The notes under the pieces: model-generated
The model's database searches: none
What the model was told of the DNA's origin: nothing
What the model saw: only the letters and a program-made list of their open reading frames with translations
Translations under genes and position numbers: made by a program
Source of the DNA: Desulfomonile tiedjei DSM 6799
GTDB lineage: Bacteria; Desulfobacterota; Desulfomonilia; Desulfomonilales; Desulfomonilaceae
Length of the DNA: 64,000 nt
Direction: 5' to 3'
NCBI RefSeq assembly: GCF_000266945.1
Contig: NC_018025.1
Coordinates: 4,034,001 to 4,098,000, forward strand
Part shown: positions 12,621 to 40,480 of the stretch, in pieces
Numbering within the stretch: position 1 is the first letter of the stretch
How the letters are laid out: every line of letters begins with the position of its first letter

Positions 12621-12671
12621 AGCCTTCACACGGCAGGGGTCGGAGGTTCAAATCCTCTCCCGCCTACCAGT
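12621..12671 (+). other. Attachment site 1: 3' fragment of a tRNA gene (probably tRNA-Val, CAC)
   Basis: The 51 bases are identical to 36292-36342. They read as the 3' half of a tRNA: anticodon loop TTCACAC (anticodon CAC), GGCAG, variable loop, T arm GGAGG-TTCAAAT-CCTCT, acceptor strand CCCGCCT, A, CCA. No complementary 5' acceptor AGGCGGG lies upstream, so this is the fragment left by integration and not a functional tRNA. It separates element L from element A. Confidence 0.85.
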
Positions 12672-12703: not shown

Positions 12704-13957
12704 TCACCCCACGGCCTTTTTTCTTTCCTCCGAGTTTTCCCGTGACTTTCCCGTGACTTTTTTCGGGAGACTATCGGGATGGGCCTTTTCGGCAATGTCC
12801 AGTTCGGTCCATCCGTGGTCGAAAGTCATGGAGTCCACAGCATCCAAGAGCACTTGGTCAGACACCCTGATGTACCGATCTTGAACGGAGCGTTCCCCAG
12901 AGTGGCCGACGATAAGATTTCTCACCGCCGGGTCCATCCCCGAGCGTTGGGCGTTGGTCTTCCATGTATGCCTGAGATCACGTCTCTGAAGGCCCTTGAG
13001 ACCAGTAGCCTTAATCGCATTGTCCCAAGCCTTTCGCACCATGAAACGATCAATGGGATCACTTTGCGGACCACGGTGCTTCTTGTATCGTCCACCATAG
13101 GCAAAGATCAGTCCTATTGCTCGGACCACTTTTCCGTCATCGCCACGTCTGAGAGTTTCGAGAAGCTCAAGCGGTTCCTTCCGCAACGGTACTCTCTTAG
13201 GCCGTAACCTGACTTTTCTTTCGCTCTTGCCCTCTTTGGTCACGTCTGGGGGCAGTACCAACATTCGACGTTCAGGTTTGTACATTTCCCATCTCAGGTT
13301 TACGACCTCTCCGAATCTCATGCCCGTGTAGTACATCATCTCAAGAACGTCCCGAATCCACCCAGAGTGCTCCAGCAGGCGACTAAAGTCCTTCCAAGAC
13401 AAATAGGTATCTCGCTGGTTTTCGGGCAGTCGCTTGATCATCGTACAAGGGTTGAAGTCCAGATTCTCCAGTTCCACTTGCAACCGCATTACCCCAGACA
13501 AGACGGAAAGTTCCCTGTTGACGGTTCCATTCTCAACTTTTTCCTGCCTAGCTCTTCGATATTCCCTCACCTGGGGGACTCGTATGTCTTTCAACCGAGG
13601 ATTGTCCGTGAAGTGCTCGACCAAACGATCAATCGCTGATAGGTTCCGCTCCGAGCGATGCCGTGTGTCGGCTTCCAGATAAGCCGTAATTGCTTGCATA
13701 AGCGTGAGATCTTCTCCAGGCAGAGGCCGAGCCAATTCTGATGGCAAAGCCCAGCCCTTGTTCTCATGGGTGCGGATGACCCAAGCTTTTGCGGCTTCAT
13801 CTAAGCTATCAAAACGATAGACTCTGAAAGCGCTTTTCACGTCTTTTTCAATCCTCTTGGCTTCGGCCAGGTTTTTCGCCTCGGATACCGTCTCCAAGCG
13901 CTCCTTTTTCCACTGAAAGTAAATCACGAAGCGTCCATTCTCGTTTTTTATTGCCAC
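12704..13957 (-). CDS. int: Tyrosine recombinase / integrase of element A
   Basis: Started at the GTG behind an AAGGAGG site, the product has 417 residues and overlaps the excisionase-like gene by 10 bases; a GTG at 13987 would add 10 residues. The C-terminal catalytic domain shows the arginine in TGMRFGE, the box R-D-L-R-H-T, GH in VGHSG and the nucleophile Y in QDRYIR. The first position of the usual H-x-x-R box is Arg (RDLRHT), unlike the element B enzyme (HDLRHT). The N-terminal half has the core-binding SAM-like region. The stop lies 33 bases from the attachment site, as expected for an integrase that recombines the tRNA fragment. Confidence 0.9.
   Translation of the reverse strand: MAIKNENGRFVIYFQWKKERLETVSEAKNLAEAKRIEKDVKSAFRVYRFDSLDEAAKAWVIRTHENKGWALPSELARPLPGEDLTLMQAITAYLEADTRHRSERNLSAIDRLVEHFTDNPRLKDIRVPQVREYRRARQEKVENGTVNRELSVLSGVMRLQVELENLDFNPCTMIKRLPENQRDTYLSWKDFSRLLEHSGWIRDVLEMMYYTGMRFGEVVNLRWEMYKPERRMLVLPPDVTKEGKSERKVRLRPKRVPLRKEPLELLETLRRGDDGKVVRAIGLIFAYGGRYKKHRGPQSDPIDRFMVRKAWDNAIKATGLKGLQRRDLRHTWKTNAQRSGMDPAVRNLIVGHSGERSVQDRYIRVSDQVLLDAVDSMTFDHGWTELDIAEKAHPDSLPKKVTGKSRENSEERKKAVG
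12739..12761. repeat. Left-end tandem arm-type repeats of element A
   Basis: Two tandem copies of CCCGTGACTTT, 11-bp period, lie within the 3' end of the integrase gene. The same 23 bases recur at 36171-36193 near the other end and nowhere else that I see. This is the layout of integrase arm-binding sites. Confidence 0.6.
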
Positions 13958-14262
13958 TGTTTGACCTCCTTGCGAAGGTCTTTCCACAATTCCCCTAAAC
14001 TCTTTTTATCGCCTCCCTTCTTTTTCGGGATCGGGCTGGCTGTCCTTCTGCCAGCCTCTTGATGATTCACGGGGATGGGCTCGATCTTTTTCGACTTGCC
14101 CTCCACGAAATCATCCACGGCGTCGGCGGTGAATAATACCACCTTTCTCGACAATTTCACGCTTTCAATCTTATTCTCTCTCGCCCATTTCAACAACGTC
14201 CTCTTCTCAATTCTGAGCCTCTCGGCTGCCTCGGCAGCGGTTAGTAGTTCCTTTCCTGACAA
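13948..14262 (-). CDS. Excisionase-like HTH protein of element A
   Basis: The 104-residue product starts at a TTG with GGAGGT eight bases upstream. Residues 6-60 form a MerR/excisionase-type winged helix (LLTAAEAAERLRIEKRTLLKWARENKIESVKLSRKVVLF, then DAVDDFVEG). The tail is basic and rich in proline. It overlaps the integrase start by 10 bases, so the two are translationally coupled; the same pair occurs in element B. A hairpin (14287-14303) precedes it. Role in directing excision or controlling int is inferred. Confidence 0.75.
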   Translation of the reverse strand: MSGKELLTAAEAAERLRIEKRTLLKWARENKIESVKLSRKVVLFTADAVDDFVEGKSKKIEPIPVNHQEAGRRTASPIPKKKGGDKKSLGELWKDLRKEVKQWQ

Positions 14263-25758: not shown

Positions 25759-27273
25759 CTACTTACTTATATTGACGTGATACGCACGAGCTACGCTGAT
25801 GATTTTCTCTCTGGTGAAAGAATACAGCCTCGCCTTACGATCCGCCGTTCGTTTCTTTTTTGTGCGATCCGCCAAGCCCAGATGAGCTAACAGCTCGCCT
25901 TGGGACTTTGGAGTTAAACTCTTCGGCAGCTCGATATCGTGATCGGAGACATATTCATTGAATTGAGTCAACAAAACGTCTCCACGATACTCGCCGTCGT
26001 CGCTTATCGCCTCCGAAAGAAACGACAAGTAAGCGTGTTCAGGTGACGATTCGCTGAAATCCGCCAATTGGCCTTTGTGAAAGTCAATGGCAAACTCCGT
26101 AACCGCAGCCACGACCGAAGGATCTTCAGTTGCGGTTGCGATAGCGAATATGGGGCGGAATAACTCGTATTCCCTCCCCGCAAACGGGACGATACCTGAA
26201 GGATCTCCCATCTGCATATACACGTCCCGAATCATCGGGGCGTAAGTCAATGCCGACAAGAAGCACGAATCACGAACCGCTTGCGCTTCCGTTTGGTCTA
26301 TGGGAATCAGAATCCGTGTCGTGCGAGACATCAGAATCTTAACAGTTCGGGACGCCATCACGTCCTCAAAGCCTGCTTGTGATGCGAAAGCCCGAGGAGC
26401 GTACACTTCAAAGTGCTTGTGACGCCATCTGCCGCCCCTATTGACCGAACGCAATACTTTTCCGCCCTTCTTGTACGCCGATAAGAGTATCGCTCTCTCA
26501 CCTGCGAGACTTCTCCGTTGGAATTTCTCGCTTTCGTCAACGCAGAGCGTTCCACTATTGGACTGGACCAAACGGACATGCGCCGCCGGGCTTATATCGG
26601 GAGTCAACTCGCCATTGAAACAGATCTGCGCCAGTGTCTCCAGAGCCGTCGTTTTTCCCACAGCCTTCGGCCCATTAAAATGGACATAGGGATATGAGTG
26701 AAAGCCCTCAAACATGTACGTCCCCACGACCCATGCGGTCAGGAAATCGTACTGGCGATGATCCCTCAAATCAATATGCGATTTGAGAGTCTCTCTGACG
26801 ATGTGGAAGGTTTCCAGCAGGTCGCCCTTCCACGATCCGTCCAAAAAGCCTTTCACTGCTTCTCCGCTGTACCTCGGGTCAACTAAAACATCCTCAAAGG
26901 GAATCCTTGAATAGATTCCCCGTTCCGTCAGTTCCTTCGGGCTAAGCGGAAACAGTTCACGGTCGCTTGTTATGACCCATGGAGCCGGGACCATAAGACC
27001 ACTTTCGGGATCAAAGCCCATCCGAGGGATGGTCATCACCAGTCTATTACCTACGAAATCAAGCGGTGGCCTAATTCTCCCTCGATGAGTGAAATCGGCC
27101 AGAAACGCATCTTCCGAGGCCTCAACCTGATGCAGGAGCACATTACCCTCTTCGCCGTCAGGAAGTCGGACTATACCGTAAGCATCCGTCTGGCTCTCCA
27201 CATGCCCATACTCAAGAACCTCTATGTCGGCAGAAGTAGTGGACACTGGTCTTAATTCATACTTTGAAATCAT
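25759..27273 (-). CDS. AAA+/helicase-like P-loop ATPase of element A
   Basis: The 504-residue product has a Walker A GPKAVGKTTAL at 201-211 and a Walker B TLCVDESEKF at 242-251, followed by conserved features (SAYKKGGKVLR, SRTVKILM) like those in DUF927/DUF3987-type helicase domains of integrated elements. The first 190 residues have no zinc or Toprim motif, so it is not a full primase. A short C-terminal winged-helix-like tail (PKSQGELLAHLGLADRTKKKRT) follows. The element B primase-helicase has a similarly placed ATPase, so a replicative helicase or loader role is likely. The ribosome site is enclosed in an inverted repeat (27280-27300). Confidence 0.6.
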   Translation of the reverse strand: MISKYELRPVSTTSADIEVLEYGHVESQTDAYGIVRLPDGEEGNVLLHQVEASEDAFLADFTHRGRIRPPLDFVGNRLVMTIPRMGFDPESGLMVPAPWVITSDRELFPLSPKELTERGIYSRIPFEDVLVDPRYSGEAVKGFLDGSWKGDLLETFHIVRETLKSHIDLRDHRQYDFLTAWVVGTYMFEGFHSYPYVHFNGPKAVGKTTALETLAQICFNGELTPDISPAAHVRLVQSNSGTLCVDESEKFQRRSLAGERAILLSAYKKGGKVLRSVNRGGRWRHKHFEVYAPRAFASQAGFEDVMASRTVKILMSRTTRILIPIDQTEAQAVRDSCFLSALTYAPMIRDVYMQMGDPSGIVPFAGREYELFRPIFAIATATEDPSVVAAVTEFAIDFHKGQLADFSESSPEHAYLSFLSEAISDDGEYRGDVLLTQFNEYVSDHDIELPKSLTPKSQGELLAHLGLADRTKKKRTADRKARLYSFTREKIISVARAYHVNISK

Positions 27274-27300: not shown

Positions 27301-27878
27301 ACCTAAGACTTCTGAATTAAGTATCCATTCACAAAAGTAAACTCCGAAAATTAAACAAAACTCCTATGATCTATTGTAGAAACTCGCTTTCATAGGCTGT
27401 TCAACCCACTTTGTGTTACTTTTGATGATCCGCCCTACAGCGGATCGAGAGAAATACTCCTTTCCCAGACTCGTTCACGGATCTTCTGCGGCTCCGTCGA
27501 GCGACTGACTTATTCCGACCGACCACGCCCCATGCGAAGCACGGGACTCATCAGAACACTACAAAATACATGTCTAGGTACGGAAGTCAAGCAAAAAATT
27601 AAAAACAGCACACAATGCGGATTGGCGGGCGGTGCGCCTTGAGACCTAGAGACAGACGCAGCTCACCTAATCTCCTAATTAGTGGGCTAATTGGGGGGCA
27701 CGCCCCCCGCATAGGTTAAAATTGGCTCAAGAGCCTGAAAATACTTGCGGGTTGCGCCAAAAAGAGCGATAGTTCTCGGTTGATGGAGCGACGGGAGTCG
27801 GGATCAGCCTGATTCACGGTGTCGCCCACGGGCCAAGATCTGGGTTCATCTCAGTATCGTCTACCTGAGAGGATGTGC
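27301..27878. other. Divergent intergenic region
   Basis: No gene is seen. It contains CCGACCGACC at 27515-27524, a GGGGGG-CACG-CCCCCC hairpin at 27693-27708 next to TAATT repeats, and presumably the promoters of the ATPase gene (minus) and the type III restriction-modification operon (plus). Confidence 0.45.
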
Positions 27879-30167
27879 ATGCCACGACTGACTGATCAAG
27901 AAAAGCAGGAAATCATTCGGTTCATAGACGCCGATAAGCCTTTGCCAGACAAATACCGCTTCCTCCTGTTCGATGAGAAGCGGGAGGTGGAATTGGTATG
28001 GAACGGAAAGACGGGCGAGGTCTGCAACATCGTCCTGCCTTTCCAAGTCATCGAGCAGGTAGACGAGCCCCGTGCGGAAAAGCCAGACGACACAAAGATA
28101 CAGTTCGATCTCTTTGACCTGGACAACCGTGGCCGACAGCTCAAGGGATGGACCAACAAGCTGATCTGGGGGGACAACAAGCTCATTCTTTCGTCGCTGA
28201 AGAACGGGCCGCTCCGTGAGGAAGTGGAAAATCAGGGCGGCATCAAACTCATTTATATCGATCCCCCGTTTGACGTGGGTGCAGACTTCAGCATGGATAT
28301 CGAGATTGGGGGCGATACCTTTACCAAGAAGCCGAGCATTCTGGAAGAGATTGCCTACCGAGACACATGGGGGAAAGGCGCTGATTCATTCATCGCCATG
28401 ATTTATGAGCGACTGGCGTTGATGAGAGATTTGCTGGCTCAAGACGGAAGTATTTATGTACACTGCGATTTTCGTGTGAACAGCTTTCTGCGTGGAATCT
28501 TGGACGAAGTGTTCGGAAACGACAACTTCAGAAACGAAATAACCTGGAAGCGTCGGGTAGGAATGAGTAGTGCAGTGCATGAATCCAACCGATTCGGGGT
28601 TTGCACAGACGTAATCCTATTCTACGTCAAATCGAACAAAGCAACGTTTACACCCCAGTACAACGCAGATTCACCAGAGTATCAGGAATATATTAGAACC
28701 CGTTTCACATATGTGGATGAGACAGGGAGGCGCTATCAGCCGACTAGCCTCGTGAATCCAGGTTATCGGCCCAACCTCATATATGACTACAAGGGTTACA
28801 AGTCCCCACCAAACGGCTGGATGATCACGAAAGAAAAAATGGAAGAGTGGGATAGAGAGGGACGCCTCTACTTTCCTAAAGATCCTTCGGGACGGATTCG
28901 CCGAAAAAGTTTCGCCGATGAATTGAAGGGAATGCCTGTTCAAAACCTCTGGTCCGACATCTACGAAATTAACTCACAGGCGACGGAGCGGGTCGATTAC
29001 CCCACGCAGAAGCCTGAAGCCTTGTTGGAACGCATATTCGATGCCTCATCAGCCGAAGGCGACCTCGTAGCCGACTTCTTTTGCGGTTCAGGTACCACCG
29101 CTGCCGTGGCCGAGAGACTCGGGCGCAAATGGATCGTTAGCGATTTGGGCAAATTCGCCATTCACACCACTCGTAAGCGCATGATCGGCGTGCAGCGGCA
29201 ACTCAAGGCCACAGGAAAGAACTACCGTGCCTTTGAAATCCTCAACTTGGGCAAGTACGAGCGCCAGCACTATATCGGCATCAACCCTAACCTGCGTGAA
29301 GAAGAACAGCGAAAGCAACTGGAAGCAAAGGAAGCAGCTTTTGTCGATCTGATCCTACGTGCCTACCGGGCCGAAAAGACAGACGGCTTTGCTACCTTCC
29401 ACGGCAAAAAGGGCGGGCGGCTCGTGGCCGTTGGGCCTGTGAACCTCCCTGTAACTCGCTTGTTCGTGGAAGAGGTCATTCTCGAATGTCGGAAGAAGCA
29501 CATTACCCGAGTGGACATTTTGGGCTTTGAGTTCGAGATGGGGCTCTTTCCAAATGTGCTGGACGAAGCCCGAGCCAAAGGAATTGACATTGCTCCCAAG
29601 TATATCCCTGCGGAGGTCTTTGACAAACGGGCCGTAGAAAAGAATCAGGTGGTGTTTCACGACGTAGCGGCTATCGAGGTAAAACCACTTTTTCAGAAGA
29701 ACAGTATTGCAGTGGAGTTGACCGATTTCTCGGTCTTCTATTCACAGGATTCCGTAGCAGCCGCCGAAGCGACTCTCAAAGACAAGTCCAGTAAAGTAGT
29801 TGTCGAACGGGGGCAGATCGTCAAAGTGAGCAAGGATAAGAACGGAATCATCACTCGTGAACGTCTCACTCAGCACTGGACTGACTGGATCGATTATTGG
29901 GCGGTGGATTTCAACTTTGAAAACAAGCGTGAAATAGTCCGTGTCAAGAACGAAGAGAGTGGCGAATGGGAAGAGCGCTGGACTGGGGATTTCATCTTTG
30001 AAAACGAGTGGCAGTCGTTCCGCACGAAGAAGGACCGCAAGTTGGAACTCAAAAGCGTACTTCACGAATGTACTCCAGGACGACGGAAACTGGCTGTAAA
30101 GGTCGTGGATATCTTTGGTAACGATACAATGACGATTATCGAGGTCAACGTGGGAGGTAAGAAATAA
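27879..30167 (+). CDS. Type III restriction-modification methyltransferase (Mod)
   Basis: Started at the ATG 27879 (GAGAGG six bases before), the product has 762 residues; a GTG at 27819 gives 20 more. It is a beta-class N6-adenine/N4-cytosine MTase: catalytic DPPF at 128-131 ([11 protein letters not shown]) precedes the AdoMet motif [11 protein letters not shown] at about 402-412. The long region between, and the C-terminal 280 residues, would hold the target recognition and Res-binding parts. Its stop overlaps the Res start by one base (TAATG), so both are made together. Methylation protects the host and Mod is needed for recognition by Res. Confidence 0.9.
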
Positions 30168-32857
30168 TGGCGCTGCACAAAGACTTCCCCGAATCCCCCC
30201 ACGCTATACTCGATCCAGCGATACGCTGGTTCCCTGCGGATGAAGCCTTACGAGAGTCGAGTGCGGAAAAACTGATGCCCCCTTTGGTTCCACAGCTTCG
30301 CCGCAAAGTGAAAGAATGGAGAGACAGCGGTTATGTGGGGGCAACTGATGCCAGCAAAGCCCTGCTCAATTGGTGGTTCAACACTCCGCATCTCCTCCCC
30401 AAGGCCGATGGGACAATGGCCGAATTTCAGTATTATTTTGCACAACGGGAAGCACTGGAAACCATCATCTATTTGTACGATGTAGTGGCCGTGCGGGACA
30501 AGTTCGACCTCATGCGGTTCGACGGTTCTGGAGCTGTCTCGGCGGGTATGTTTGATGAGACTTGGCGGCGTTTTGTCGTAAAGATGGCCACAGGGGCGGG
30601 CAAGACAAAGGTCATGAGCTTGGTGCTGGCCTGGAGCTTCTACCACAAACTGTATGAGCCTGAGTCAGAGTTGGCACGCAATTTTCTGGTTATCGCACCG
30701 AACATAATCGTGTTGGATCGCATCTACAAAGATTTTCAAGGACTACGAATTTTCTTTGAAGATCCCGTCATCCCAGACAATGGCGTGAACGGACGCAACT
30801 GGAGAGATGATTTTCAGCTTACGGTGCATCGCCAAGACGAGGTACGTATCACCCGACCCACGGGTAACATCTTCCTGACCAACGTTCATCGTGTCTATGC
30901 TGGTAACGATATTCCACCATCGCCTGACGATGACGACACAATGGATTATTTCCTGGGTAAGCGCCCAAGTGGCGCAACTACAGACTCCAAAGTGGATTTG
31001 GGCATGATCGTCCGTGACATTGACGAACTCACGGTCCTTAATGACGAGGCGCACCACATCCACGATCCACGCATGGCTTGGTTTAAGTCCATCGAAGATA
31101 TTCACAACCGATTGAAGCAAAAAGGCGCTGCTCTTTCTCTGCAAGTGGACGTGACGGCGACACCCAAGCACAACAACGGGGCCATATTCGTGCAGACCGT
31201 TTCGGATTATCCGCTTGTCGAAGCCATTTCTCAAAACGTGGTCAAGCACCCTGTCCTGCCTGACGCCGCCAGTCGTGCAAAACTCGTTGAACGCAAGAGC
31301 GCCAAATTTACGGAGAAATACGCTGATTACCTCAACCTCGGCGTGATAGAGTGGCGCAAAGCTTATTCAGAGCATGAAAAGATGGATAAGAAGGCCATCC
31401 TGTTTGTAATGACCGACGACACCCGAAATTGCGACGATGTGAAGACGTATCTGGAGGGCAACTATCCTGATTTGAAAGACGCTGTATTGGTCATCCACAC
31501 CAAGGCCAACGGTGAAATTTCCGAATCCACTTCAGGCAAGAGCAAAGAAGAATTGGACAAGCTGCGTGAGCAGGCCAACACTATTGACGGGTTCGACAGC
31601 CCCTACAAAGCCATCATCTCGGTCATGGTGCTCAAGGAGGGCTGGGACGTGAAGAACGTCACAACCATTGTCGGACTCCGTGCTTATTCCGCCAAGAGCA
31701 ACATCCTGCCTGAACAGACCTTGGGACGAGGCCTTCGCAAGATGTACCCTGGCGGCATAGAGGAATATGTCAGCGTCGTCGGTACGAACGCCTTTATGGA
31801 TTTCGTGGAATCAATTCAAGCTGAAGGTGTCGTGCTGGAGCGTAAACCGATGGGAGAGGGAACCGAGGCAAAGACCCCGCTCGTCGTAGAGATTGACAAA
31901 GAAAACTCGAAGAAAGACCTCGATGCTTTGGATATAGAGATACCAGTGCTGACTCCACGTATCTACCGAGAGTACAAGAATCTGAGCGACCTGGATGTGA
32001 GCGCACTGGGTCATCAGCGTGTGCTCTATCTACAGTTCAGTGAGGAAGAACAACGGGAAATCGTATTTAAGGACATCACAACGGGCGAAGTCACGCATAC
32101 GACATTCCTGGATACGGCAGGTATTGCCGATTACCGAAGTGTCCTTGGCTACTTCACGCAAACCATAATGAAGGACCTGCGGCTGGTGAGCGGATACGAC
32201 GTGCTCTACGCTAAGGTGAAAGCCTTTGTCCAAGATGAGTTGTTTGGCCGTCCCGTTGACCTGGAGAGTCCCAATACCCTACGCAACTTGTCTGAGCTTA
32301 CGGCCACCAAAACGCTGCTGGATACGTTCAAGAGAGCTATTAATGCTTTGACCGTGCAGGACAAAGGCGACGCCGAAATTCGGGACAGAATTAAGTTGAG
32401 GGATACACGTCCCTTCGTGGCAAAGGATCAGGGCTATCTTATGCCCAAGAAGAGCGTCTTTAATCGCATAATCGGGGACAGCCACTTTGAACTTGTATTT
32501 GCAAGTTTCTTGGAAAATTGCGACGACGTGCTTTCCTATGCCAAGAATTATCTGGCGGTCCATTTCAAGCTGGACTACGTGAACAGGGACGGGGACATCT
32601 CCAACTATTACCCTGATTTCTTTGTTAAGCTCTCGGCCAAGCGCATTGCCGTTGTGGAAACAAAGGGCCAGGCGGACTTGGATGTACCGCTCAAGATGCA
32701 ACGCTTGCGGCAGTGGTGCGAGGACATCAACCGAGTCCAGACCGACATACAATACGACTTTGTTTATGTTGACCAGGAAAGCTTTGAGAAGTACAGACCT
32801 GCCTCATTTCGACAGTTAATCGATTGTTTCAAGGAATATAGAGAAGCAACTCAATAA
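30167..32857 (+). CDS. Type III restriction-modification helicase-endonuclease (Res)
   Basis: The 896-residue product begins in the last base of the mod stop. It has an SF2 helicase core: Walker A MATGAGKTKV at 140-149 and DEAH in VLNDEAHHIHD near 294. Motif VI-like residues lie in EQTLGRGLRKM. The C-terminal nuclease domain shows Y-Y-P-D-F and V-V-E-T-K (PD-x(n)-E-x-K) at about residues 815-835. Domain order and length fit type III Res subunits. With Mod it forms an ATP-dependent restriction complex. All key motifs are intact, so the system looks active. Confidence 0.9.
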   Translation: MALHKDFPESPHAILDPAIRWFPADEALRESSAEKLMPPLVPQLRRKVKEWRDSGYVGATDASKALLNWWFNTPHLLPKADGTMAEFQYYFAQREALETIIYLYDVVAVRDKFDLMRFDGSGAVSAGMFDETWRRFVVKMATGAGKTKVMSLVLAWSFYHKLYEPESELARNFLVIAPNIIVLDRIYKDFQGLRIFFEDPVIPDNGVNGRNWRDDFQLTVHRQDEVRITRPTGNIFLTNVHRVYAGNDIPPSPDDDDTMDYFLGKRPSGATTDSKVDLGMIVRDIDELTVLNDEAHHIHDPRMAWFKSIEDIHNRLKQKGAALSLQVDVTATPKHNNGAIFVQTVSDYPLVEAISQNVVKHPVLPDAASRAKLVERKSAKFTEKYADYLNLGVIEWRKAYSEHEKMDKKAILFVMTDDTRNCDDVKTYLEGNYPDLKDAVLVIHTKANGEISESTSGKSKEELDKLREQANTIDGFDSPYKAIISVMVLKEGWDVKNVTTIVGLRAYSAKSNILPEQTLGRGLRKMYPGGIEEYVSVVGTNAFMDFVESIQAEGVVLERKPMGEGTEAKTPLVVEIDKENSKKDLDALDIEIPVLTPRIYREYKNLSDLDVSALGHQRVLYLQFSEEEQREIVFKDITTGEVTHTTFLDTAGIADYRSVLGYFTQTIMKDLRLVSGYDVLYAKVKAFVQDELFGRPVDLESPNTLRNLSELTATKTLLDTFKRAINALTVQDKGDAEIRDRIKLRDTRPFVAKDQGYLMPKKSVFNRIIGDSHFELVFASFLENCDDVLSYAKNYLAVHFKLDYVNRDGDISNYYPDFFVKLSAKRIAVVETKGQADLDVPLKMQRLRQWCEDINRVQTDIQYDFVYVDQESFEKYRPASFRQLIDCFKEYREATQ

Positions 32858-32904: not shown

Positions 32905-33909
32905 CTACCCGTAGTCGGGAAAGGAACTTCCAAAGATTTCGCCCCATTTAGCGATTGAGGCGTGTTGATTACCTTGGTCTTCTAACTGCCTTGCCTCCAA
33001 TGCTCTCTGGTGATCATAATTTGCCCTGCTCCAAATCTTCTGTCGATCCTGATGGGAAAGCGTGTTGATGTCACCTTGCACCCCCGTTGGATCATTGACA
33101 GAAGAAAAGAGGGAGTTCGCTATGTGGGCCAATACTTTGGGGATTTCCAGATCAACGTAAGAGCTGGCCTCGGAACACCAGACATTATCGTAGTGATCCA
33201 CAATCATTGTCTCAAGAAGGTAAGATGCCATACTCGGCATCGTGGGACGCCTGTTCCAGTACTTCATAATACGAATCACATTCAAAATGTTGCCCTTGTG
33301 AGTTTGGTTCACCCTCGTCACTCTATCCCGATCATTTCTTGGGTCACTCTTCTTCCAAGCCCCGTTCCCATCAGGAATCAGATAGTAGGTTCGGCCCCAG
33401 GCATCAGGTTCCGTAAAGAAACAGGGGACAATATCGAAACTCCACATATATGACGTAAGATTCAGTACAGCAGCCTCCAAGTTTCTCTTTATGGCAGCAT
33501 TCTTATATTGGGGAACTGAGGACAGGTGAGAGACAAACTTGTTTATAACCTTCCTTGAATTGAGTGTGAATGTCCCATCATTGCATAAAGGGCCTAAGTT
33601 GCTACCAGCACTACGTATGGTTATGTCGCAGTGACCCCAAGACTCTGCATAAACTGAGCCCTGGGCATGCAAACAAATCATCATATCTATATCGTCCAGA
33701 GGTCGTATCTTTGTCATTCTGGCAAAGGAACCAAAGAAAATGTCCTTCTCTGAGTATAACCGGGGAAAACTCCCTTCAGCTTCAGGAAAAGACCGTATCT
33801 GCTTTACTAGCCAATCTCTGCTCTTTCGTGCGCTTTTAGTCTCTTCAGGATCTAAGTTCACGACATTCTGCATGAATTGATTGAAGGCAGATGTTACCGA
33901 AGTAGCCAT
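32905..33909 (-). CDS. CD-NTase-like nucleotidyltransferase 2 (CBASS cyclase)
   Basis: The 334-residue product has the CD-NTase active site: G60-S61 (FFGSFARMTKIRPL), D73 and D75 (DDIDMMICL) and D159 in MWSFDIVPCF. The C-terminal half is helical, as in cGAS/OAS-like enzymes that make cyclic oligonucleotide signals. It starts 4 bases after the stop of the S-4TM effector gene on the same strand, so it is translated with it. All three acidic ligands are present. It is clearly different in sequence from the second cyclase gene at 35123-35914. The nucleotide produced is unknown. Confidence 0.8.
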   Translation of the reverse strand: MATSVTSAFNQFMQNVVNLDPEETKSARKSRDWLVKQIRSFPEAEGSFPRLYSEKDIFFGSFARMTKIRPLDDIDMMICLHAQGSVYAESWGHCDITIRSAGSNLGPLCNDGTFTLNSRKVINKFVSHLSSVPQYKNAAIKRNLEAAVLNLTSYMWSFDIVPCFFTEPDAWGRTYYLIPDGNGAWKKSDPRNDRDRVTRVNQTHKGNILNVIRIMKYWNRRPTMPSMASYLLETMIVDHYDNVWCSEASSYVDLEIPKVLAHIANSLFSSVNDPTGVQGDINTLSHQDRQKIWSRANYDHQRALEARQLEDQGNQHASIAKWGEIFGSSFPDYG

Positions 33910-33913
33910 GAGG

Positions 33914-34855
33914 TTACTTCTCCGTTTCGTCTTTCTTTGTCACTTGCGCTTCACGGACCAATTCCTGCACCCCCCGCCTCATTTGTTCCTCCTGTTCATC
34001 CTTCAACCAATCGTGAATCCTGTCGAAAATCAAAGGGCAACTACGACGATGATCATAGATTTCATCCTGAAGAAATCTGGCCTCAGTTGTGATTTTTTCT
34101 GGAGAAGACGCTGGGTCTTTTGCCTTCGTCCAGAGTGAATCGGCGTGTTTTATAAGCTTATCTAATGTGTCACAGGTATCTACTTGCCGCCTATATTCCC
34201 GAATGGCCCAAAGAATCGCAGGGGAGATTGGAGCAAAGACAGAGAGGACAAGATCAGATACCGACAATTGTTTTCCGATACCAATTACGATTGTCAAGAT
34301 GATTGCCAGCGTCAGTATTAATCTTATCCATTTGTTGTATCTACGTCTTAAATTAGCATCCCACATTACGTTTGATCGTTGGCAAGCCACAATTCCCTGA
34401 TACAATGGCAAATCGCCAACTTCAGGAGCATACCATGTTTTGTCTATCTCGTTTTTGGCCGTCTTCTTGTATGCCTTTGCCGCAGCGACAATGCTCTCAG
34501 CACTTGGTTTACTCCCGATCTTGAAAGTCCGCCATTCCATGTCAAACAGTTCGCAATCAAAAATCTCCTGTATCTTAGCGGCCTCCAGTTTCAGGCGTTT
34601 TTGCTCGGAATCGAGAAAGAGGACATCTAGGATCGATAAAGCGACTCCGTATGCCACAGCCCATACCTTCAAGTGCTTCCAGTCCTGTGAGTCCCCCACA
34701 AGAACTGTGATTATCGAAAATAATATAGGGATCAAGACAGTGAAAAGAATTTGGCATCCTAGTCGGACCTTTGCTCGTCCGTAGAGATAGCTGGAGGCAG
34801 CAAGGTATTCAAGTAATCGGTCAGAGCTTTGCTTCTCGGGAATATCGTTTTGCAA
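33914..34855 (-). CDS. S-4TM family putative pore-forming effector (CBASS)
   Basis: The start is taken as the TTG behind GGAGGT (five-base gap), giving 313 residues that begin with the family signature IPEKQSS-R-LEYLAAS-YLYGRAK. A further upstream TTG is less likely. Two hydrophobic pairs make four membrane segments: about residues 37-55 and 60-78 (ILFTVLIPILFSIITVL, WAVAYGVALSILDVLF) and about 190-240 (LILTLAIILTIVIGIG, LVLSVFAPISPAILWAI). This is the S-4TM arrangement found beside CD-NTases, where the effector is thought to perforate the inner membrane after binding the cyclic nucleotide, killing the infected cell. The downstream cyclase is 4 bases away. Confidence 0.75.
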   Translation of the reverse strand: MQNDIPEKQSSDRLLEYLAASSYLYGRAKVRLGCQILFTVLIPILFSIITVLVGDSQDWKHLKVWAVAYGVALSILDVLFLDSEQKRLKLEAAKIQEIFDCELFDMEWRTFKIGSKPSAESIVAAAKAYKKTAKNEIDKTWYAPEVGDLPLYQGIVACQRSNVMWDANLRRRYNKWIRLILTLAIILTIVIGIGKQLSVSDLVLSVFAPISPAILWAIREYRRQVDTCDTLDKLIKHADSLWTKAKDPASSPEKITTEARFLQDEIYDHRRSCPLIFDRIHDWLKDEQEEQMRRGVQELVREAQVTKKDETEK

Positions 34856-35122
34856 TCCAGACCTCCACCAAACAATGAATACACCGCCAAGCAACAACAC
34901 TCGGCAGGTGCAGCATCTCGTAACTTTTAATATCAGATATACAGCCTAGCTGGTTTGTCAAGTGCTCGTTTCCCGTGTGGGGCTTGGCCATTCGTGCGAA
35001 GTTGTCCCAAGGGTAAGAAGCATCTCCTCATTCCCAGACAAGGTTATGGTGGGCAAACCCGATTGTTCTAACGGGTTCGTAATAGTTGTTAACCCCATCA
35101 ACTCGTCGTGTTGCCGTGTTAC
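34856..35122 (-). promoter_or_regulatory. Gap between cyclase 1 and effector, candidate promoter
   Basis: The 267-base gap holds no gene. A consensus -35 TTGACA (minus strand, 34956-34961) followed by AT-rich TATATC / TGATAT boxes could drive the effector-cyclase 2 pair separately from cyclase 1. Spacing to the -10 is not ideal. A 6-bp AACCCG/CGGGTT inverted repeat lies near 35055-35080. Confidence 0.35.
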
Positions 35123-35914
35123 TCATAACTCTGGCACGATTTTCTTTATTTCTAATTCCGCCGAAATAGCCAAGCCGATGTCCTCATACTCCTTCGCTTT
35201 TTGGGCATGCTTCTTGGCGCTATCAACCTTGTCTTTGATATACTGGGCTGTGTCCACGGAGTAGCTTGCGGTTGACCAGAAATGATAGAAATAATCCTTC
35301 AAGGATGAACACGAGTAGAAAAGTGTATCTATTATAGCTTTTTCGATTGAGAAGGAGTTGAATGGGTGAGCATTTTTTGCGTTCCAGTATTTTACGAGGC
35401 GGACTAGCGGTTTTATTTGGGAATTATTATTTATGTTCTTGTCTTGAAGATCTTTGTTAGTCCGAGATGGGTCCGTCGACATCCACTCGGTCCATGAAGA
35501 CGCAGGCGACGGAATTTGATAGCCAAAGAGATTTGAAAGTGCAGGAACTAGTTCAAAACTGATGTGATTGAGAGATAACACAATAGTCGGGTGGGATTGG
35601 GCTCTTTCCGATGTTGAGTACTTTGCCTCCACGAATGTTTTCAAGTTAGTCAGGTAGGTTTGTGGCTTTTTAGCCGACCCTGGAGATGAAGCGAACACCA
35701 CCATGTAGTCGATATCAGAATTGTTATCGGCTTTGCGAGGGAGAATCGTGCCTCTAGTACTCGAACCAAACTGAAAATGGCCAGTCACTTGAGAGCCGAA
35801 ATGAGAATCGAGTCTGGTCTTCAATGTGGCGATGGACGTGGCGATGCTTGCTTTTTCCGCCGCCGAGAGCACAAGGTCGCTCGCCAGATCAGTGAGATAC
35901 GAATTAACGGACAT
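35123..35914 (-). CDS. SMODS-type nucleotidyltransferase 1 (CBASS-like)
   Basis: The start is the ATG behind a perfect AGGAGGT site, giving 263 residues; the frame is open 30 codons farther. The active-site motif is G50-S51 (FQFGSSTRGTILPRK) with D67 and D69 (SDIDYMVVF). At the third acidic position the sequence is SFELVPAL, with Glu (E121) where most enzymes have Asp. The helical C-terminal part is shorter than in cyclase 2. It lies 267 bases upstream of the effector gene on the same strand. Family assignment is firm; whether it makes a signal of its own or acts in another way is unknown. Confidence 0.75.
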   Translation of the reverse strand: MSVNSYLTDLASDLVLSAAEKASIATSIATLKTRLDSHFGSQVTGHFQFGSSTRGTILPRKADNNSDIDYMVVFASSPGSAKKPQTYLTNLKTFVEAKYSTSERAQSHPTIVLSLNHISFELVPALSNLFGYQIPSPASSWTEWMSTDPSRTNKDLQDKNINNNSQIKPLVRLVKYWNAKNAHPFNSFSIEKAIIDTLFYSCSSLKDYFYHFWSTASYSVDTAQYIKDKVDSAKKHAQKAKEYEDIGLAISAELEIKKIVPEL

Positions 35915-36291: not shown

Positions 36292-36342
36292 AGCCTTCAC
36301 ACGGCAGGGGTCGGAGGTTCAAATCCTCTCCCGCCTACCAGT
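36292..36342 (+). other. Attachment site 2: 3' fragment of the tRNA gene
   Basis: These 51 bases equal 12621-12671 exactly and again carry only the anticodon-loop to CCA part of the tRNA. They end element A and begin element B. Confidence 0.85.
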
Positions 36343-36428: not shown

Positions 36429-37589
36429 TCACCGTGCAGTCAGGATCTTGGTTTCACCTTGATCGAAGGACATCTTGTCAATTGCGGCAAGGAATTCTTC
36501 ATCCGATATCCATCCGTATCGATCATTGACCTTCTTTCCCCTCCACCAGTGCCCGAGTATAGTTTCAGCGATCTGAGGATCCACTCCGGATCTTCGAGCA
36601 TTGGTGCGCCACGTATGGCGAAGGTCATGGAATCTCGGCCGCGGCTCAGACCAGCCCAATGCCTCCAAAGCTCGAGGCCATGGATTCTTGGCCCCTTCTA
36701 TGGAGGGAGGCCGAATACCTTTGGAATCCCTCATGAGAAACACAAGATCACTGTTCAGAATCCGCACCTTCAATGCTGCCTCAAAAATAGGAACCAGATT
36801 CACATGTATTGGGACTCGCTTCCAGTTACCTTCCTTCGTATCCTTGGGTCCCAAATAAATCATCCGCTTCGCTACATTGACCTTCGACCAAGTAAGTCCG
36901 AGGATTTCGCCTCGTCTCATACCGGTATAATAGCCGGTCCATATGACAGGTTGATACCAATCAGGACATCGAGTTGCGATTCGCTTGACGTCGGCTAGAG
37001 CCAAATATACTTGTCGCATGCCCTCTTTGTTGCTCAGCCGTTTCACCAATCTGCATGGATTTGACATGACACATTCGGATTCGATCAGCACTCCGAATAG
37101 TTTAGAAAATGTGGAAAATTCGCGATTAACCGTATCAGCAGCTGCTCGGTCTTTAAGGCGCTTAATCTGATATTGTCGCAACTGTGGAATGGAAATATTC
37201 TTCATGATTGCTTCTTTCCCGAAATAGGCCACGATGTGGTTCAGAGCGAACATATATCTCTCCAATGCCTTGCATTCGGCAATTCCGGGATAGTTAACGA
37301 ATATCTCAACGGATTTCCACAATGTCAGTTCCTGCCTGGGGGCCCTCGTCAATTGATCGATTACCAATGACTCGGGAAATTCCCAGTGCTGATTTCGAAA
37401 CATTCTGATGCAGGTCTCTCGTGAAAGTGGATCCAGTGTCCGGTAATCGCCGGATCGGCATGCAACCCTCAAATTCTCCTCGATCTCTTTCACCATAGCT
37501 TTGCTTTTCCCTTCGGTTCTGATCCACACCTCCTTTCCGAAGGGAGCGAATTTTATATAGTAATGTTTGCCTCGTTTAATCACCGACAT
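36429..37589 (-). CDS. int: Tyrosine recombinase / integrase of element B
   Basis: The 386-residue product has all tyrosine-recombinase residues: R in GYYTGMRRGE, H-D-L-R-H in RFHDLRHTW, GH in ILGHWW and Y in NDRYGW. Its stop is 86 bases from the tRNA fragment. It is related to the element A enzyme but clearly diverged, and its arm repeats differ too. The start overlaps the excisionase-like gene by 10 bases, the same coupling as in element A. Confidence 0.9.
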   Translation of the reverse strand: MSVIKRGKHYYIKFAPFGKEVWIRTEGKSKAMVKEIEENLRVACRSGDYRTLDPLSRETCIRMFRNQHWEFPESLVIDQLTRAPRQELTLWKSVEIFVNYPGIAECKALERYMFALNHIVAYFGKEAIMKNISIPQLRQYQIKRLKDRAAADTVNREFSTFSKLFGVLIESECVMSNPCRLVKRLSNKEGMRQVYLALADVKRIATRCPDWYQPVIWTGYYTGMRRGEILGLTWSKVNVAKRMIYLGPKDTKEGNWKRVPIHVNLVPIFEAALKVRILNSDLVFLMRDSKGIRPPSIEGAKNPWPRALEALGWSEPRPRFHDLRHTWRTNARRSGVDPQIAETILGHWWRGKKVNDRYGWISDEEFLAAIDKMSFDQGETKILTAR

Positions 37590-38020: not shown

Positions 38021-40480
38021 CTACTGGCCCTCGTGGTCGCTCTTTGGTGACAATGGTGAGATTTCGTGGATACCATATGCCCGAGCAAGCCGGGCTATTT
38101 GATCCTCGTCACAGATGATCGCCGAGCAACCTCCGTGCAAAGTTCCACGCTCGAATCCGAGTTCTTTGCAGATCTTTCCCACACGATGGGGAGTCATCCA
38201 ATAGTTTTCGGAAGCCCCTTCATTGATCTTTTCAGTAATCGCCTTTACGGGCAGGAGCCGATTCTTGATGATGGGATTCTGAGAAGTCTCCTGAGTTGCT
38301 TGAATGAGAAAAATTGCTCGTATGATCTTTCCCTGGACAGAATCTGATTTATCCGACTGCCGTTCGCGGGCGATCTTCTTCACAAATTCAATGAACAGGG
38401 ATTCCCGGTTCGGCTTCACGCATCGGATGATCTGATGGAGAGGCCTCACTATGTCTCCCAGGCGTCCTGCAGTTATTTTGGCAATGCGCTCTGGTTTATC
38501 GTTCATGTGGCGGGCACGAAAAACAAGACAACGCTCCTTCAATTCCAATGCAGTTTCCGGCGTAACATCCTCATTGAAGATTCGATCAGACAGTTTCATG
38601 TTGATCTCGATACATCGGGATCCGAGGATTCGATCTACCGATTCGTTGCTTGCGATGATAGTAGGCCCGAATACCTCAAAGTATTGCGTGTCTCCAAAAG
38701 GTCCGTTCTCCGGATGGGTGACGCGAGGAACCCGAATCCCCTTCTCAAACCTTCCAAGAAGTATGTCTTCTTTGCCGGTCTTTCTCGCGACTCCCGAGAT
38801 ATCCCGCATATCGAAAAATATTGTTCCCCTGAGATGTTTTGCGTGTCTCAGGAGATATGCATCTTGGAGGCTGATGGTGTGGAGGGCTCGATAGCAGACG
38901 TAACACAGAGCCTTGCCGGTCCTGCTCTTTCCACGTTCAGCGTCTGCAACGAAACAAATTACAGGTGAGTAGTTGGCTAGTTCGAGCAAGTACGTGTGTA
39001 GTACGAAAGCTGCCAATAGATCGTAGTGAGCCTCTAATGGTAAGTCGCTGGTCGCATGAAAATATTCTTTCAGGTCATCGTATAGAGCAGCGTCTTCAAT
39101 CGATGGGTTTTGTTGGCCTCCTCTCCATATTCTCAAGACTGATGTGGCTGATGGGATCGGTTGCGGTAAGTATTCCACTGGAGGTGGAACATACAGTAGA
39201 CCGTCGAGATTGAGTTCAGCGCAGATCGCAAGCTCTTTCCCTCTGAGCAACAGAAAGACGGTCTTAGTCTCCCGGACTGCAACATCAACCAGATTCGGCG
39301 CCAAAGCGATGCACCGCGCCCCTTCCCCGTCCTGCTCCGACAATTCCGATTTGATCTTCGCTTTTTGACTTATTTGCTTCCGGTATGCAGATACTTCATC
39401 GCTGCTCAAATGGAACTTGGTTTTGATGAGACCACCGAGAATCGCTTCAATCTGCGGCGAAGGCATTCGTGACAGTGAGGTCAAAATAGGCTCCAAATCG
39501 CGGGCAAGATCGAGATGGTCGATGTCGCTGGGAAGTGATTCTATAAATGACTTGATCGAGTCGATGGAATGGCTTTCGCCGACATTCCCGGTCGGAGAAT
39601 TATCCACAAGAGCGATGGGGCTGTTCAATTCAGGCGTATCTTTGGCTAATGCCAAGAGGGACTCTTTTGCCTTGTCCGGCCCTAGAAATTCAATCACATC
39701 TGAAATGTCTCCCTTTTCGGGCAGATCCGGCCAGATCTTCTTGAGATCAACCTTTTTTACGGAAGCAGCAAAACCGATTACACTATTTGCCACTTCAGTC
39801 GCATGTTGTTTTCCGGGCCGATCGTTATCCGATAGAACGATGACGTGTTTATTTTTCAGTGGTTCATGTATGCGGTGCTCGCTTACCAATTTGGACCACT
39901 TGCCTGCCCCCATAGGGTTGGTGGTAGCTGTCAGTCCGAGCTGCTGTGTAACGGAATCACAGTCTCGCTCTCCTTCGCACATGATAATCGTATTCGCGTC
40001 GATGATTTCAGGTAGGTTGTATAATACGAGCTGAGTGTCTTTCAAACCTGGCAGCCAGCCATCTTTTGAGTCAGTCCGGAATTGCCTGAATTTCTTTCCG
40101 CTATACCGGAAAGTAGCATGGAGCGGATTTCCTGCGGCATCTCGATATATGTACCGTGTCTCCTGTTTCTCCGGCGGCTTCTTCCGGTTTTTCCCCGGCA
40201 AGCGAATTCCAATCTCTGCCTTCCCTGCGAGCTGCCGAATTGCGGTACGAAAATCGACTGAATATCGTATCATCCAGATGTCGAAGATCGAGAACTGTCT
40301 CTTTTCTGCGTGACAGTATCCGTAATCGTCATTGAGCTGGAATGAGGGATTCGTGTCTTCATGAAAGGGACAAAGCGAATTTTTGCCCTCCCGGTAATGA
40401 TTGGGGTAAAGCCTTCGGAAGAGTTCCCTGAAGGGAATTTCTCGCTTGACATCTTCGGGAGAATACTCTAAATCGGCCAT
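38021..40480 (-). CDS. Primase-helicase of element B
   Basis: The 819-residue product combines an N-terminal CHC2-type zinc finger (C37-P-F-H40 ... YGYC56), a Toprim catalytic core (IIMCEGERDCDSV and VIVLSDNDRPG) and a C-terminal P-loop ATPase (ADAERGKSRTGK Walker A, TIFFDMRD Walker B). This is the usual DUF927/DUF3987-like primase-helicase of integrated elements and phages. The fourth zinc ligand of the finger is not obvious (CHAE instead of C-x2-C). It synthesises primers and unwinds DNA for element replication. It is the first gene of the operon that leads to the integrase. Confidence 0.8.
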   Translation of the reverse strand: MADLEYSPEDVKREIPFRELFRRLYPNHYREGKNSLCPFHEDTNPSFQLNDDYGYCHAEKRQFSIFDIWMIRYSVDFRTAIRQLAGKAEIGIRLPGKNRKKPPEKQETRYIYRDAAGNPLHATFRYSGKKFRQFRTDSKDGWLPGLKDTQLVLYNLPEIIDANTIIMCEGERDCDSVTQQLGLTATTNPMGAGKWSKLVSEHRIHEPLKNKHVIVLSDNDRPGKQHATEVANSVIGFAASVKKVDLKKIWPDLPEKGDISDVIEFLGPDKAKESLLALAKDTPELNSPIALVDNSPTGNVGESHSIDSIKSFIESLPSDIDHLDLARDLEPILTSLSRMPSPQIEAILGGLIKTKFHLSSDEVSAYRKQISQKAKIKSELSEQDGEGARCIALAPNLVDVAVRETKTVFLLLRGKELAICAELNLDGLLYVPPPVEYLPQPIPSATSVLRIWRGGQQNPSIEDAALYDDLKEYFHATSDLPLEAHYDLLAAFVLHTYLLELANYSPVICFVADAERGKSRTGKALCYVCYRALHTISLQDAYLLRHAKHLRGTIFFDMRDISGVARKTGKEDILLGRFEKGIRVPRVTHPENGPFGDTQYFEVFGPTIIASNESVDRILGSRCIEINMKLSDRIFNEDVTPETALELKERCLVFRARHMNDKPERIAKITAGRLGDIVRPLHQIIRCVKPNRESLFIEFVKKIARERQSDKSDSVQGKIIRAIFLIQATQETSQNPIIKNRLLPVKAITEKINEGASENYWMTPHRVGKICKELGFERGTLHGGCSAIICDEDQIARLARAYGIHEISPLSPKSDHEGQ

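Follow-up and report, generated by a model that had tools for sequence, protein, structure and literature searches.

We examined a 64,000-nucleotide stretch of the Desulfomonile tiedjei DSM 6799 chromosome (NC_018025.1, positions 4,034,001 to 4,098,000; hereafter the window, with positions counted from its first letter), which carries a locus of the cyclic oligonucleotide-based antiphage signaling system (CBASS) type with two cGAS/DncV-like nucleotidyltransferases (CD-NTases) and one S-4TM effector. On the minus strand the order is CD-NTase 1 (cyclase 1, 263 amino acids [aa]; 35914-35123), a 267-base gap, the S-4TM effector gene (34855-33914), four bases, and CD-NTase 2 (cyclase 2, 334 aa; 33909-32905). 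Open reading frames (ORFs), Pfam and PADLOC agree with the initial annotation on these genes and their coordinates, and its assignment of the locus to CBASS is confirmed by the SMODS, S_4TM and PADLOC models. The effector stop is followed by four bases and then the ATG of cyclase 2, as had been described. The 267-base figure for the gap is correct if the effector starts at TTG 34855, although the longest ORF starts at GTG 34900. We take the TTG as the probable start: a GGAGG lies six bases before it, and it stands two codons ahead of the start of the S_4TM match.

Cyclase 1 is an intact enzyme of its family. It matches Pfam SMODS (PF18144, 1.4e-41) and the PADLOC model PDLC00769 (2e-108), and it carries the catalytic pattern GSS...DID followed by a Glu (SFELVP), the residue that had already been noted at its third acidic position. 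This Glu might have been read as a loss of catalysis, an idea that we rejected, as Glu occupies the third metal position in 8 of the 11 aligned family sequences, window included (alignment A1), and Asp in the other 3. An AlphaFold model of cyclase 1 (30 sequences; mean predicted local distance difference test [pLDDT] 93.0) has the full-length CD-NTase fold. Solved CD-NTases match it over nearly its full length, the best being Pseudomonas aeruginosa CdnD (Z 24.3, root mean square deviation 2.9, 255 residues aligned). A profile search of the PDB with cyclase 1 (E up to 1) returned 15 rows; most of them are CD-NTases, and two weak ones are not (9xbd, streptomycin adenylyltransferase).

The gap behind cyclase 1 is not empty. 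It holds a minus-strand frame of 32 codons plus stop (35126-35028) that the initial annotation overlooked, and whose start overlaps the cyclase 1 stop as ATGA, in the same manner as effector genes overlap cyclase genes in close relatives. In tblastn searches of the surrounding 8 kb, residues 1-31 of the partner protein of one such relative (L029) matched this site with 42% identity (E 3.5e-5), and partners from eight of the nine closest loci did so at E values from 3.5e-5 to 0.14. A profile of the N-terminal part of the partner, run unfiltered over all six-frame segments of the window, ranked the frame first among 2,320 (E 3.7e-4; next 0.47). A chance match was rejected on these two results, and we therefore refer to the frame as a stub of cyclase 1's own 4TM effector. 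The 172-base spacer between the stub and the S-4TM start (34856-35027, minus strand) does not resemble the part of the effector that is missing, and no significant similarity to that part was found in the 8 kb around the locus or, by a search insensitive to short pieces, in the rest of the genome. We accordingly rejected a frame-shifted, rather than deleted, effector.

The partner to which the stub belongs is well defined in relatives of cyclase 1. Alignment A1 was used to scan a species-level genome collection, in which 198 relatives were confirmed; the best 80 were kept as loci and classified with profiles built in this analysis. A same-strand membrane partner adjoins the cyclase in 78 of these 80: a 2TM SLATT protein upstream in 54, a 4TM protein downstream in 22, and a 4TM protein upstream in 2. 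The SLATT count includes two loci assigned by hand, namely L081, where the gene was seen in the locus listing, and L066, where it is an end piece at a contig edge; the automated count was 52 SLATT with four loci empty. Among the nine closest loci (L027-L035, 60-70% identity to cyclase 1), which include a Desulfovibrionales metagenome-assembled genome (MAG; L027), a 4TM partner of about 260 aa lies directly downstream in all nine, and in eight it shares a 4-base stop/start overlap with the cyclase. PADLOC recognized the CBASS 4TM effector model PDLC00719 in all four downstream 4TM partners scanned (9.3e-90 for L027) and the 2TM effector model PDLC00712 in the SLATT partner. On plasmids we found ten records of the cyclase 1 family, nine at 42-51% identity and the tenth at 33.5%. 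Their partners are annotated as SLATT in L018, L019, L021 (a short one) and L025, and are proteins of about 255 aa without a Pfam match in L016, L017, L022, L023 and L024; in the Persicobacter record L020, an S-4TM stands beside the cyclase 1-family enzyme.

For the 4TM partner of about 255-265 aa, profile comparison gave a probability of 1.8 for its being a divergent S-4TM and 0.2 for a relation to SLATT, and so supported neither. AlphaFold models the L029 partner as helical (mean pLDDT 82.5), and nothing in the PDB matches this model significantly; PDB profile searches with the 4TM and SLATT partners returned no matches. SLATT proteins themselves are predicted to be nucleotide-responsive or toxic pores (PMC7159879, PMC12483538).

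A few of the 80 loci depart from the common layout. The partners counted among the 78 look shortened or split in L077 (5790-6272), L080 (5813-9109, two pieces 2.5 kb apart) and L086 (4710-4997), so partner damage is not unique to the window, and effector loss may be recurrent in the cyclase 1 family. No same-strand membrane partner was found in the two remaining loci, L036 and L093. In L036 (5001-5792), the cyclase 1 relative has no detectable partner and a Lys at the third acidic position, and is possibly a decaying orphan cyclase. In L093 (5001-8522), a cyclase 1-family gene with no SLATT on its own strand converges on the genes of a 4TM-type effector and of another kind of SMODS enzyme.

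The other two genes of the locus form a complete unit. The effector matches Pfam S_4TM (PF18159, 1.4e-100) and the PADLOC 4TM model PDLC00721 (6.3e-106). Cyclase 2 matches SMODS (6.7e-12) and PADLOC PDLC00802 (4.5e-147), its best phmmer match in the PDB is 6p82 CdnD (1.3e-15), and it carries the CD-NTase active-site pattern GS...[DE]h[DE]h...h[DE]h (GSF, DDIDMM, SFDIVP), including the three acidic residues previously attributed to it, all of them Asp. Judged from the sequence, the pair appears to share one operon, four bases apart on the same strand, and it has no ancillary Cap2/Cap3 or HORMA/TRIP13 genes: ancillary CBASS models were absent among the PADLOC matches listed for five flanking proteins (for the methylase, the best 25 of 55). 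The pair is a complete short type I CBASS (PDLC00802/PDLC00721) with both genes intact. It differs in that the effector gene comes first, an order shared by five of the 26 S-4TM loci other than the window (L012, L020, L149, L150 and L152).

We compared the S-4TM gene across 27 loci including the window, the others being 18 plasmid loci, the one phage record and seven loci found by searching sets of 395, 386, 398 and 297 genomes (the last again covering the window's own phylum). Flanks vary in length, with only 54 bases on one side in L150. Loci at the same places as counted ones (L136, L115, L116, L160, L124-L128, L131, L132, L005) and partial or weak ones (L006, L007, L117-L123, L129, L130, L133, L134, L143) were left out. 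One SMODS gene is present in 23 of the 27 loci, two in the window, L009 and L137, and none in L151. An S-4TM and a CD-NTase 2-family cyclase form a pair of their own, with no CD-NTase 1, in L135 (cyclase 57% identical, S-4TM about 35%) and L010 (cyclase 35%, S-4TM about 35%), and also, with the genes ordered as in the window, in L149, L150 and L152. These pairings give the combination of S-4TM and cyclase 2 a precedent, and cyclase 2 is probably the cognate cyclase of the effector. Effector and cyclase similarities were nearly uncorrelated across the loci (Spearman 0.07, p 0.22; 300 locus pairs, window excluded), which suggests that S-4TM effectors and cyclases swap partners often. Of the 962 plasmid records that cyclase 2 matched, 948 cover 80% or more of its length. 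In a scan of viral contigs it had one match and cyclase 1 had none; a weak effector match there, 28% over query residues 191-308 and located within a phage ORF of 659 aa, was dropped.

Among the 27 loci, the window and L020 are the only ones in which an S-4TM has a cyclase 1-family neighbor. The available flanks of the 80 cyclase 1 loci yielded no S-4TM of the kind present in the window, and none was found in 12 genomes with CD-NTase 1 loci, a search that falls short of proving absence. A second SMODS gene lies near the CBASS genes in two of the 26 S-4TM loci other than the window and in two of the 80 cyclase 1 loci. The three-gene order of the window, whose conservation the initial annotation had proposed as a check, was found nowhere else in either set.

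We conclude, with a probability of about 0.8, that the locus consists of two short CBASS units in tandem, the upstream one reduced to a cyclase and an effector stub. The upstream unit would originally have comprised CD-NTase 1 followed by its own 4TM effector of about 260 aa, of which a deletion or replacement would have taken all but roughly the first 31 codons, leaving the cyclase partnerless. The downstream unit of S-4TM and CD-NTase 2, complete and placed head to tail with the first, would on the analogy of its families be switched on when phage infection activates CD-NTase 2; the cyclic oligonucleotide made by this enzyme would be bound by the S-4TM protein, which may then permeabilize the inner membrane and halt the infected cell before the phage is completed. 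Cyclase 1 shares with PDLC00769 CBASS (2TM SLATT or 4TM PDLC00719 partners) the CD-NTase fold, the intact active site, its close kinship to the nine loci described above and, in the corresponding position, the beginning of their partner gene, but it differs in that the partner is a 32-codon stub rather than a complete 2TM or 4TM protein, and we therefore class it as the remnant of such a unit and not as a member system. The apparently new architecture is in this way explained by two known units in tandem, one of which lacks its effector, and it suggests a rule for other multi-cyclase loci, which is to seek the start of a missing partner beside the extra cyclase.

Several observations weigh against this interpretation. 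Cyclase 1 does not look like a relic: of 61 positions conserved in 93% or more of the 29 sequences compared with it, it deviates at none and shows no decay. For comparison, there are deviations at 6 of 61 positions in the partnerless L036 but at 9 of 64 in L095, whose partner is present, so this count is a weak measure. The effector may have been lost recently; alternatively, the enzyme may continue to be used. The L035 partner and five plasmid partners gave no tblastn match at the stub, to which any match is short. A full-length effector profile found nothing in the genome at E up to 10, the stub included; that it missed the stub as well indicates that the search is insensitive to short pieces. 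The S-4TM loci were hand-picked, the 18 plasmid loci coming from 890 matching records. Finally, in L020 a cyclase 1-family enzyme is the sole cyclase beside an S-4TM, which makes crosstalk between cyclase 1 and the S-4TM conceivable.

The initial annotation had read the locus as two cyclases around one effector, and suggested that these might provide two signals, form a heterodimer or include a regulatory enzyme. The comparative evidence points instead to a separate unit of cyclase 1 and its own effector, and the stub of that effector, sitting in the gap, answers the question of whether cyclase 1 belongs to such a unit. Homologous loci had also been expected to be informative if they lacked cyclase 1. 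This holds in that none of the 26 other S-4TM loci has the cyclase 1 family beside another cyclase, although it does not hold for the Persicobacter plasmid, where this family supplies the only cyclase. A present-day joint function of cyclase 1 is still conceivable because the enzyme is intact. It is unlikely, in our estimate, that CD-NTase 1 was kept after the loss of its effector to supply the S-4TM pore with a second signal, whether activating or restraining; were it so, the locus would be a two-sensor, one-pore CBASS that arose from a tandem pair through the loss of one effector, and a naturally occurring example of a single pore served by two CD-NTases. An activating second signal specifically, giving one pore two sensors, seems rather doubtful. 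Full conservation of CD-NTase 1 would fit such a role, but a recent loss would equally leave the enzyme intact. The pairing in L020 also speaks for it, and the S-4TMs of the window and L020 share PDLC00721 as their best PADLOC model. So does L034, a Delongbacteria MAG in which a CBASS cyclase, a cyclase 1-family enzyme and one intact 4TM effector follow one another (42-2473; 3 bases, then a 4-base overlap), although the contig starts 41 bases upstream of these genes and a further effector could lie there. The stub, however, accounts for the layout of the window without a second signal, and the three-gene order is unseen at the other loci. A terminator-like site (34907-34884, minus strand) shortly before the S-4TM start also counts against this role, though such sites are expected by chance: the region scanned held one terminator-like site (3.1 expected) and six promoter-like sites (4.8 expected), with none of the latter on the minus strand in the gap or upstream of cyclase 1. 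These counts are within chance expectation, and the scan does not settle co-transcription.

An inhibitory role for CD-NTase 1, in which it would constantly make an inhibitory or decoy signal, hold a membrane effector inactive and guard the adjoining CBASS, appears improbable. The precedent is Panoptes (OptS/OptE), which often immediately adjoins CBASS operons and has an effector that is repressed by a cyclic nucleotide (PMC12657218, PMC12657230); OptE is homologous to Cap15 (PMC12657218). A nucleotide also acts as an inhibitor in Clover (PMC12265719). The window is similar in having a second nucleotide-signal enzyme beside a CBASS, and an inhibitory enzyme can safely outlast its effector. Yet the synthase of Panoptes is a minimal CRISPR polymerase (mCpol) and cyclase 1 is a SMODS-type CD-NTase, and its would-be effector is gone. 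In a survey for orphan effectors we found one effector in 244 genomes, paired with a cyclase. The same genomes held four cyclase 1 matches, too few cases to judge by; one was an L009-type CBASS cyclase, and the other three had a 4TM partner, a SLATT protein or a 282-aa ORF that looks membrane-like by eye. The truncation is even less likely to be an assembly or sequencing artefact that hides a complete upstream unit in the living cell. It was seen in this one genome only, but about 230 codons are missing, which is beyond any single base error, and no other copy of the effector was found in the genome by the search that also misses the stub. The least probable of the explanations we considered is a heterodimer, or a catalytic and regulatory pair, of the two CD-NTases. 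Only their adjacency favors it; the enzymes come from separate families, with 23% identity over 124 aa, and each family has its own effector elsewhere, so this suggestion of the initial annotation was not sustained.

In two other loci, too, an S-4TM CBASS has a second SMODS enzyme no more than about 3.5 kb away. In L137 (6906-12800), from the window's own phylum, the S-4TM CBASS directly follows an operon with its own cyclase, ThiF and JAB genes, and so is another tandem CBASS; it differs from the window in that the second cyclase is grouped with the ThiF and JAB genes. L009 (3113-6817), on the Nostoc plasmid pNLP4, is the best plasmid match of the S-4TM and likewise carries two cyclases: the upstream one is normal, while the second, 34% identical to cyclase 2, differs from the window's arrangement in being convergent and in bearing a Lys/Ser/Thr-rich N-terminal tail of about 190 residues. 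No effector is annotated beside this convergent cyclase within the stretch viewed. A literature search returned nothing on two CD-NTases in one CBASS operon among the matches listed, and a search on S-4TM with CD-NTase or CBASS found no paper.

Hailong was also considered as a relative. In that system, HalB starts poly-dA from a C-terminal tyrosine. Tyrosine is absent from the last 15 residues of cyclase 1 (C-terminus ...AELEIKKIVPEL), and A1 shows no conserved tyrosine in this region, so cyclase 1 does not fit Hailong in this feature. The two systems are alike in combining a nucleotidyltransferase with a membrane channel (HalA/HalB; PMC13275509). Neither HalB nor HalA appeared among the 50 structure matches listed per search for the models of cyclase 1 or its partner.

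The locus sits at the right-hand edge of a segment that repeats of the tRNA-Val 3' end delimit. Exact 32-base copies of this repeat, on the plus strand, occur at 12638-12669 (left boundary) and 36309-36340 (right boundary), with 0 expected; they are att-like, and each is followed by a tyrosine integrase gene (12704-13987 and 36429-37589, respectively). Across about 109 kb of the chromosome (3961550-4070345), there are five long copies of the tRNA-Val(CAC) 3' end, all on one strand, the first being part of a complete tRNA-Val gene. Five copies on the same strand suggest tandem integrative elements, and the copies probably mark such an array. The neighbors of the locus include type III restriction-modification, integrase and primase-like genes, with the restriction-modification pair (27819-32857) adjoining cyclase 2. 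Two large proteins encoded near the integrase genes, at 38021-40480 (with a DnaG-type zinc ribbon) and 25759-27273, may be replication proteins of the integrative elements.

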